60,401 nt of DNA from an uncultured Allomuricauda sp. Its GTDB lineage: Bacteria > Bacteroidota > Bacteroidia > Flavobacteriales > Flavobacteriaceae. Numbering within the stretch: position 1 is the stretch's first letter; every line of letters begins with the position of its first letter. Position numbers and translations under genes: made by a program. The DNA lies in NCBI GenBank assembly GCA_937899065.1, contig CALBPG010000175.1, positions 1 through 60,401 on the forward strand, given 5' to 3'. Positions 54,688 to 58,482 of the stretch are shown piece by piece. The notes beneath the pieces were generated by a model. It was not told the origin of the DNA, searched no databases, and was given only the letters and a program-made list of their open reading frames with translations.

Positions 54688-56529
54688 ATGAAGGGTATGA
54701 GAGGGATGAAAATCTCGGTTTTGGCCGTGGTTTTGGCCTTGATGGCATGGTCTTGTGATGAAGAGTTAAGAACTATTGGTGAGGGCGTAATAGGAGGAGA
54801 ACCTTTTACCACCGGTAGCTTGGAATACGATGTTTTTGTATATAACAAGGGGTTGGAAGCGACTCAAACCAACCGACTTCCTCTATATCAATTAGGAACT
54901 TTCAATGACCCCATATACGGTAGCCGAACCGCTCGCATTGTCACTCAGGTGGCTTTCCAGGGTGCCTCAGGTAATCCAACCTTTGGCCAGTTGACACAAA
55001 CACAGGAGGACGAAGCAGATAGTGATGAAGACCCAAATACCATTCAAGAAAATGAAACTGTTGAAAGGGTCTTTTTATACATACCTTATCAATTACCCCC
55101 TTCTTCTGTTAGAGACAACGATGGCGATGGCGTAGAAGCGGGATTTGATTTGGATGATGATGACCCTGATTCTGATTCCGATGGTGATGGAGTGGTTGAT
55201 AATGATGAAAGAATCATTGGCTCAGACCCTTTGGATCCAAACGAGGACGGTACTGGTGACGATTTTGTACCCAATACTTTCCCCCGTAGTTTGGTTTTAG
55301 ATAGTATTTACGGAGCAACTACCGTACAACAAGGCCCTATTAATCTAAAGGTTACTACTTCCAACTTCTTTTTGAGGGATTTGGACCCAGACACTGATTT
55401 TCGCGAATCGCAACAATATTTTTCAAATCAGGATTTTTCTGCCTTTGAAGGGGAAACACTTTTTGACGGTACTTTTGAAATCAGTAATGAAGAATTTATC
55501 TTCTTTACTGCAGATGAAGATGATCCAGATACCGCGATAGATGAAACGCAAGAAGTGAGCTCGAGATTAATCCCAGGTATTCGGGTAGAATTGGATCGGG
55601 ATTTCTTTCAAACCAACTTTATCGATAAAGAAGGCCAGTCTGAGCTCTTGAGCCAATCCAATTTTAGTAATTTCATTCGTGGTTTGCAGATTTCTATTCC
55701 TGATACGGAAATCATGTTTTTGTTGGATTTGACGCAAGCCAATATTTCTGTGGAGTATAGTTATCAAGACTACATTACTACTACACAAGAAGTAGAAACC
55801 GTTGAGAGCAGCTTTACTTTGCGACTGTTTCATATCGTGAGTGGAAATTCCATTGGAAATGCTGTAAATACATATACAAGTGATGCCTTTCCGGCCGACA
55901 TCACAAGTCAATTGGATACAGGAGAGAATGCCTCTCGTATATTTTTAAAAGGAGGTGCTGGCGCTATATCAGAAGTATTGCTGTTCTCAGAAGAAGAAGA
56001 TACTGACACGCGCGGACGCAATTTTATTGAAGAAATCCGAGCCAACAATTGGATTATCAATGAAGCCAATTTGGTGTTTTATGTAGACCGAGATGCTTTG
56101 TTGGCTGCAGGCGGTAGTGTAATTGAACCTCCAAGGTTGTATCTCTACAATGCCGAAACCAATAGACCCTTATATAACTCCGCGAATGAAATCAACGATA
56201 GTGAAGAACCGCTAGGTCTTTTCTTGAGTTATGATGGCATACTGGAAAAGGAGGGTGGTCTTGGGCTCAAATATACAGTGCGTATTACCGACCATTTGAA
56301 CAATATCGTCTTACGGGATTCGGTGAATGCCAGACTGGGACTTTCTTTGACCTCAAACATTTCCATAATTGCTGACGCAAAGGCAGTTGGCACGGTAGAT
56401 ACTGAGATAGACTTACCGATTATGAGCAATGTGAATCCCTTTGGAACCATTTTGATTGGCAACAACGTTCCTGCTTCAGAGGAGAACCAAAAGCTCAAGC
56501 TCGAAATTTTCTATACCGAGTCCAACTAG
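54688..56529 (+). CDS. DUF4270 lipoprotein with acidic Ca-binding-like insert
   Basis: The 613-residue lipoprotein has lipobox AWSC; the signal begins at any of three close ATGs (54688, 54697, 54706). It is a DUF4270 member: [40 protein letters not shown], and the C-terminal [20 protein letters not shown]. An inserted Asp-rich stretch at about residues 143-192 ([40 protein letters not shown]) resembles thrombospondin type-3 calcium repeats. DUF4270 proteins are surface or outer-membrane lipoproteins of unknown role. It follows the GT5-domain gene by eight bases and precedes glmS by 105, a gene order common in flavobacteria. Confidence 0.88.
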
Positions 56530-56634: not shown

Positions 56635-57963
56635 ATGTGTGGAATTGTTGGGTATATCGGCAGTCGTGAAGCCTATCCAATCATTATGAAAGGACTTCAG
56701 CGTTTGGAATATCGAGGGTATGATAGCGCTGGTATCGCCCTATACTGCGATGAAGATATCAAGGTTTCCAAGACCAAGGGAAAAGTAGAAGATTTAAGAA
56801 AGAAAGCCGAGTCGGAGAACAACCAAAACGGAACTTTAGGCCTTGGCCATACACGATGGGCAACCCATGGGGTACCAAATGACACCAACTCCCATCCGCA
56901 CTATTCCAACTCTAGCAATCTGGTTATTATCCATAATGGAATTATAGAAAACTATGAGTCCATCAAAAAGGCCTTGATGGGTCGCGGATACGAATTCAAG
57001 ACTGATACGGATACCGAAGTATTGGTGAATTTGATTGAGGAGGTTAAGGAAAAGGAACAAGTTAAGCTGGGAAAGGCGGTTCAAATTGCGTTGAATCAGG
57101 TGGTAGGGGCTTATGCCATAGCCGTTTTTGATAGAACCAAACCCGATGAAATCGTGGTTGCCAAATTGGGAAGCCCATTGGCTATCGGAATTGGTGAAAA
57201 TGAATATTTCATCGCATCGGATGCTTCTCCTTTTATAGAATACACCAATAACGCCGTTTACTTGGAAGATGAGGAAATGGCCATTATTCGGTTAGGGAAA
57301 GAAATCAAACTTCGGAAAATAAAGGATGATGCCATAGCGTATCCCAATATTCTTGAACTTCAATTGAATCTTGAGGAAATTGAGAAGGGAGGCTACGACC
57401 ATTTTATGCTGAAAGAGATTTATGAGCAGCCTCGGGCTATTCTCGACACCTATCGCGGAAGGTTATTGGCAGACCAAGGGATTGTTCGCATGGCAGGCAT
57501 TGACCAAAATTTGGAAAAGTTCCTAAATGCCAATCGAATCATTATTGTAGCCTGCGGAACATCGTGGCATGCAGGACTTGTAGCCGAATATATTTTTGAA
57601 GACATGGCGCGTATTCCCGTAGAAGTGGAGTATGCATCCGAATTTAGATACCGAAATCCTGTCATCACCGAAAATGACGTATTGATTGCTATCTCACAAT
57701 CTGGCGAAACTGCCGATACCTTAGCAGCTATTAAACTGGCGAAGGAGAAAGGTGCTTTTGTTTTTGGAGTATGCAACGTGGTAGGATCATCCATTGCACG
57801 CGAAACCCATGCTGGCGCCTATACGCATGCGGGCCCAGAAATTGGTGTGGCTTCAACAAAGGCCTTTACGACCCAGATTACCGTATTGACTTTGATTGCA
57901 TTGAAGTTGGCCAGTGAGAAAGGGATTTTCTCGGCTTCAAAGTTTCATGAAATCCTAACGTAA
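56635..57963 (+). CDS. glmS: glutamine--fructose-6-phosphate aminotransferase, N-terminal part (gene interrupted by in-frame TAA)
   Basis: GlmS makes glucosamine-6-phosphate from fructose-6-phosphate and glutamine, the first step to UDP-GlcNAc for peptidoglycan and LPS. This 442-residue part holds the whole glutaminase domain (nucleophile Cys2 in MCGIVGYIG; GHTRWATHG; HNGIIEN; SDASPF) and the first SIS domain (IVACGTSWHAGLVAEYIF, AISQSGETADTLAAIKLA, STKAFTTQI). The frame is closed by TAA at codon 443 (57961-57963), between the two SIS domains, and the same frame continues at once with the rest of the enzyme. One base change from a sense codon (for example GAA) explains it; no insertion or deletion is involved. 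Sequencing error, readthrough, a two-chain enzyme or a dead gene are the options. Confidence 0.95.
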   Translation: MCGIVGYIGSREAYPIIMKGLQRLEYRGYDSAGIALYCDEDIKVSKTKGKVEDLRKKAESENNQNGTLGLGHTRWATHGVPNDTNSHPHYSNSSNLVIIHNGIIENYESIKKALMGRGYEFKTDTDTEVLVNLIEEVKEKEQVKLGKAVQIALNQVVGAYAIAVFDRTKPDEIVVAKLGSPLAIGIGENEYFIASDASPFIEYTNNAVYLEDEEMAIIRLGKEIKLRKIKDDAIAYPNILELQLNLEEIEKGGYDHFMLKEIYEQPRAILDTYRGRLLADQGIVRMAGIDQNLEKFLNANRIIIVACGTSWHAGLVAEYIFEDMARIPVEVEYASEFRYRNPVITENDVLIAISQSGETADTLAAIKLAKEKGAFVFGVCNVVGSSIARETHAGAYTHAGPEIGVASTKAFTTQITVLTLIALKLASEKGIFSASKFHEILT

Positions 57964-58482
57964 TTGGAAAATATTCCAGCGAAAGTAGAAACCACATTAC
58001 AATCCAATGATTTGGTTGCCCATATTTCGGATATATATAAGGACTCCACCAATTGTTTGTATTTGGGGAGGGGATACAATTTCCCAGTAGCCTTGGAAGG
58101 GGCGTTGAAGCTTAAGGAAATCAGTTACATTCATGCTGAGGGGTATCCAGCTGCAGAAATGAAGCACGGCCCTATTGCTTTGATTGATGAACAAATGCCC
58201 GTGGTGGTGATTGCTACCAAAAAAGGCCACTATGAAAAAGTAGTGAGCAATATCCAAGAAATCAAATCTCGAAACGGACGCATTATCGCTGTGGTTACTG
58301 AAGGAGATGAAGTGGTAAAAGAACTTGCGGACCACGTGGTTGAGGTTCCAGAGACTTTGGAATGTTTGACTCCTTTATTGACGACAATTCCTTTACAACT
58401 GTTATCATATCATATCGCGGTCATGCGAGATTGTAATGTAGATCAGCCTAGAAACTTGGCGAAGTCGGTTACTGTAGAGTGA
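57964..58482 (+). CDS. glmS: glutamine--fructose-6-phosphate aminotransferase, C-terminal SIS part
   Basis: These 172 codons continue the glmS frame directly after the TAA. They hold the second SIS domain ([40 protein letters not shown]), the catalytic-site [19 protein letters not shown], and the normal C-terminus [13 protein letters not shown]. Joined to the upstream part, the length is 615 residues, as expected for GlmS. The first codon after the stop is TTG, so re-initiation by a terminating ribosome could in principle make this as a separate chain. Sequence quality is that of a gene under selection: no further stops or frameshifts and all motifs kept. A terminator follows. Confidence 0.9.

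Follow-up and report, generated by a model that had tools for sequence, protein, structure and literature searches.

Does a stop codon that interrupts glmS, an essential cell-wall gene, in a draft genome reflect the biology of the bacterium or the quality of the assembly? The question is raised by a locus in the window (the whole stretch of 60,401 nucleotides of DNA that was analysed), where the reading frame of GlmS, glutamine--fructose-6-phosphate transaminase (isomerizing), is closed by a TAA. An earlier reading of this DNA from its letters alone (hereafter, the sequence-only reading) offered four options for the break: a base-call error, readthrough or suppression, a GlmS made as two polypeptides by re-initiation, or a recently dead gene backed by another glmS or by amino-sugar use. 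A real TAA that the cell tolerates would call into question the idea that GlmS cannot be spared when no source of amino sugars is available. The comparisons reported below lead us to consider it highly probable that the TAA is a base error in the draft consensus and not biology.

Materials and Methods

The DNA analysed makes up contig C175 in the assembly of G000, a draft genome from the Flagellimonas/Allomuricauda group with 4.05 Mb in 269 contigs, with a contamination of 0.71% and a completeness of 92.3%, compared to 99-100% in most genomes of the genus. The gene neighbouring glmS (54688-56529) has named relatives in Flagellimonas, Allomuricauda, and other marine Flavobacteriaceae, with a best identity of 60-61%, and the closest glmS within the genus shares 78% DNA identity with the copy studied here. 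Among the genomes used for comparison, G085 was matched to Flagellimonas sp. S3867, G062 to F. allohymeniacidonis, G005 to an Allomuricauda metagenome bin, and G023 to another Allomuricauda bin (NZ_CAKZYF010000178.1, locus L069).

Genes were assigned to GlmS with the NCBIfam profile TIGR01135 (curated cut-off of 418 bits, set for the whole protein) in a profile search that read past stops. In-frame stops were sought in a sample of G000 consisting of the window and 40 further stretches (676,389 bases), using as queries 1017 ORFs from a 1.2 Mb sample of G085, which were aligned to the G000 sample and to the loci of the relatives. A stop was counted only when each side had at least 10 aligned residues and, within up to 12 residues, no fewer than 5 identities. 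A coding-statistics scan covered 445 kb of G000 and returned 12 matches at a looser threshold, versus 6 in 1.0 Mb of control loci. In scoring the substitutions behind the stops, nonsense by transition was taken to arise mostly from Gln, Trp or CGA codons.

Results

The glmS locus extends from 56635 to 58482 (Table 1), and the TAA is present in the assembly sequence, with the frame resuming unshifted as the sequence-only reading had described. An ORF of 442 aa with an ATG start (56635-57963) is followed in the same frame by 172 aa read from a TTG. Joined, the two pieces form a full TIGR01135 protein: the match from 56638 to 58479 spans positions 1-607 of 607 with 806 bits, well over the cut-off, and contains exactly one internal stop, while the first and second pieces scored 558 and 233 bits, respectively, when searched separately. 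The first piece begins with MCGI, providing the N-terminal Cys, and carries GATase_6 and SIS domains, and the second piece carries the other SIS domain. Since Pfam places one SIS domain at residues 296-423 in the first piece and the other at residues 27-154 in the second, the TAA sits in the linker between them, where the sequence-only reading had located it. The joined protein shares 94% identity with the G005 copy. The deposited sequence differs from a regular GlmS in that its single frame is broken by the TAA; membership in the family is not in doubt, because this codon is judged an error.

Table 1. Parts of the glmS gene in the window
Feature	Position	Strand	Evidence
Codons 1-442 of glmS, with the glutamine amidotransferase and first SIS domains	56635..57960	+	TIGR01135 positions 1-432; Pfam GATase_6, SIS
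In-frame TAA, codon 443	57961..57963	+	Glu in 111/114 other distinct sequences; an erroneous base in the consensus is most likely
Codons 444-615 of glmS, with the second SIS domain, C-terminus, and natural stop	57964..58482	+	TIGR01135 positions 437-607; SIS

Neither the profile search nor a DNA search found a second glmS in the genome, so that 56635-58482 is the only copy found and a dead gene backed by another glmS finds no support. Other SIS matches, on contigs C140 and C19, were considered as second copies and rejected, with scores far below the glmS cut-off.

The sequence-only reading had proposed aligning the interrupted codon with close relatives, and this alignment revealed a sense codon in all 114 other distinct sequences; apart from the 111 with Glu, Ala, Gln, and Thr occurred once each, and none had a stop at codon 443. 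The following codon encodes Leu or Met in 114 of 114 and is TTG in 54 of them, which indicates that the TTG abutting the stop is inherited coding sequence. Judged from this alignment, the TTG at 57964 is the ordinary codon for Leu-444 and not a start, contrary to its earlier description as start-capable. Moreover, the gene outside the TAA is, on the same kind of comparison, well preserved and without decay: leaving the stop aside, GlmS has no private changes at the 230 columns that are invariant in the 114 other sequences, and against its 25 nearest relatives it has two private changes at 406 invariant columns (relatives' median 1, maximum 8).

An internal stop in glmS is not what is expected by chance for this gene, considering that among 59 genomes searched, 54 had a match over the cut-off and only two of these (G000 and G023) contained a stop inside. 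The G023 gene, from the same genus, resembles the present case in having one in-frame stop in an otherwise intact glmS, but differs in that the stop is another codon (TGA) at another site and the gene is split over two contig ends. This TGA (L069:9609, contig C178) lies close to a contig end and is the sole stop in the 891 kb of aligned loci of relatives.

In-frame stops were found well beyond glmS. With the G085 ORFs as queries, 186,681 nt of G000 were aligned and 10 in-frame stops in 8 genes were counted, together with a single frameshift; the stops amount to about 54 for each Mb of coding sequence aligned. The control of 78 named loci of relatives, which is large but not random since these loci represent mostly one conserved neighbourhood, had one stop (G023 glmS) and no frameshifts in 891,114 nt. 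Small broad controls yielded no stops in 33,915 nt of G062 and, in 67,722 nt of G005, a single weak one, located in an ORF of 99 residues with 53% identity. If rates were equal, the probability that at least 8 of 9 interrupted genes would fall in G000 is P = 6e-6. The addition of further relatives as queries extended the alignment to 217,626 nt with 14 stops, two of which were dropped, leaving 12 stops in 10 genes. In the window alone, 46,890 nt were aligned and the glmS TAA was the only stop retained.

The interrupted genes include some that a living bacterium could hardly dispense with. The gene for lysyl-tRNA synthetase, lysS, has a stop at L215:2012 (C227) in the only copy over the cut-off in G000, and lysS carries no stop in any of the 33 other genomes whose match exceeds it; a search of G000 for an archaeal-type class I lysyl-tRNA synthetase found none. 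In rplR, interrupted at L152:5208 (C195), the halves match positions 5-54 and 62-114 of ribosomal protein L18. Neither rplR nor lysS can be lost in model bacteria. The glmS profile search in G000 itself gave a stop inside two of five matches, the second being an asparagine synthase, and in asnB, interrupted at L147:1097 (C134), the halves match profile positions 1-109 and 113-554. The coding-statistics scan added nadC (L149:6195, C10), a FecR-family gene, and a LytTR-domain gene; for these three and for lysS the profile match comes from the downstream piece only. All three stop codons (TAA, TAG, and TGA) occur inside G000 genes, and substitutions far outnumber frameshifts. With a stop only about every 19 kb, many genes should be intact, and many are, including ileS and the other long synthetase match as well as 9 of 10 ACR_tran matches.

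The nature of the substitutions was assessed at the 12 stops that had an aligned relative. The residue of the relative was never Gln or Trp and was Arg in one ambiguous case, varying otherwise by site (Glu, Lys, Leu, Cys, Gly, and others). Under uniform change, transitions are expected to account for 17% of stops, a share that rises to 45% when they carry a weight of 4; the probability of finding none among these 12, three of which lie in one transporter gene and are not independent, is 0.11 and 0.0008, respectively. Allowing one transition in 13 changes these probabilities to 0.32 and 0.005.

Two comparisons looked for the excess of missense errors that should accompany such stops if they are consensus errors, and neither showed it clearly. 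In the ribosomal operon, private changes at second positions stood to those at third positions in a ratio of 0.14, which lies inside the range of 0.05-0.20 seen in five relatives, with the G000 species on a longer branch. In nine proteins compared with up to 25 relatives each, the 1,662 invariant columns held 29 private changes, a number that exceeds the relatives' median in most of the proteins and is again in line with a longer branch. Several of these 29 changes need more than one base change, and such changes look like real divergence that fits the longer branch.

Discussion

The pattern found in G000, with 10 in-frame stops in 187 kb against one in 891 kb of relatives' loci and with lysS and rplR among the genes affected, is the one that false pseudogenes would leave. 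Base-level consensus errors in draft and metagenome assemblies are a general source of such genes. The likeness lies in many isolated in-frame stops, conserved and indispensable genes included, in one assembly and far fewer in its relatives; the difference is that here the pattern is judged from the assembled sequence, with low depth, damage or strain mixing as possible causes. The comparable stops inside other indispensable genes of the same draft, encoding a ribosomal protein and a tRNA-charging enzyme, argue that the glmS TAA is almost certainly an assembly base error. A single-base substitution error in the draft would then have turned codon 443 into TAA, and the living bacterium very probably carries an ordinary, uninterrupted glmS encoding a 615-residue transaminase. 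The completeness of 92.3%, below that of most genomes of the genus, agrees with this reading. The cause may be sought in base errors of the reads or the consensus, with a frequency near one in 1,000; assuming a uniform error rate, the 10 stops in 187 kb correspond to about 1.2 wrong bases per 1,000. The base-call error listed by the sequence-only reading is thus the option that gained strong support from the many other in-frame stops, and the lack of a nearby homopolymer that would favour an indel, which it pointed out, does not speak against an error, because a substitution error needs none.

The remaining options would require the stops to be real. A very recent nonsense mutation, leaving glmS dead, or in the course of being lost from some of the population, while imported amino sugars sustain the cell, would agree with the presence of the TAA and the single glmS copy, and the gene content is compatible with it, given that nagB scored over its curated cut-off (C19:459-1193) and amino-sugar metabolism therefore exists. 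We nevertheless regard this as very improbable: glmS shows no decay, stops exceed frameshifts 10 to 1 while decaying genes usually gather frameshifts too, and amino-sugar uptake cannot stand in for lysS or rplR, both of them also cut by stops in this assembly and left unaccounted for by this explanation. A lineage that is truly a mutator or in decay, and whose genome has gathered many genuine nonsense mutations throughout, would account for the scatter of stops over many genes and for the dominance of substitutions, but hardly deserves credence when indispensable genes are hit, the genome size of 4.05 Mb resembles that of the relatives, and the 12 scored stops include no clear transition, against the usual transition bias of mutation.

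Functional readthrough, suppression or reassignment of a stop codon, by which full-length GlmS would still be made, finds some agreement with the unshifted frame, the conservation of both halves and the recurrence of the pattern in many genes. It is even less probable than a recent loss of the gene, since the interruptions make use of TAA, TAG, and TGA alike, codon 443 is a stop in no relative, and the residues of the relatives vary by site, so that no single reassignment fits. Additionally, a suppressor tRNA was not found: 34 tRNA genes were found in the 92.3%-complete genome, none of them within the window, and among the 34 anticodons, all of which were read, there was no tta, cta or tca. 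With glmS, lysS, and rplR all cut, a living cell is credible only if it reads through every one of the three stop codons, and we give the slightest of chances to a lineage that would make full-length GlmS, lysyl-tRNA synthetase, and L18 by such efficient readthrough. Equally far-fetched is a two-polypeptide GlmS in which the second SIS domain would be made separately by re-initiation at the TTG at 57964. The TAA does fall in the linker between the SIS domains with the TTG immediately after it, but a dedicated start for the second piece was not found, as this TTG is the Leu codon that 54 of the 114 other sequences share; none of the 114 is split at codon 443, and a stop can easily land there at random, so that chance and ancestry suffice to account for both the linker position and the TTG.

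A consensus error as the origin of the TAA removes a false lead in glmS and flags the whole assembly. Isolated stops anywhere in G000 should not be taken as pseudogenes, split genes or recoding without a check of the reads, and any other finding from this assembly that depends on a lone stop should be regarded as suspect, as illustrated by lysS, rplR, asnB, and nadC.

Several candidate stops were rejected during the analysis. Three lay at alignment ends and were lost under the counting filter (L212:2741, window 47054, and L210:309), and two were dropped as gene-boundary artefacts, namely a gene junction at L152:4474 and window 52564, which is within the frame of another gene. Among the 12 matches of the coding-statistics scan, several were ordinary gene ends and were dropped; presumably these precede infA, rpoA, parB, and ribH, follow a sirtuin-like gene, or fall between xylA and a transporter. 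The scan match at L149:13175 had no Pfam match and is kept as a candidate. Some features of the sampled stretches stand apart from the isolated stops. A gene that we take to be ABC-permease-like contains three in-frame stops within about 50 bases, two of them adjacent (L151:8530-8581, C255), and may represent either an error cluster or a true pseudogene. The only frameshift in the sample (L159:12454-12490, C180) has a run of six A nearby. In lysS (L215), residue 371 is Cys instead of the Lys present in 25 of the 25 relatives compared, a replacement that needs more than one base change.
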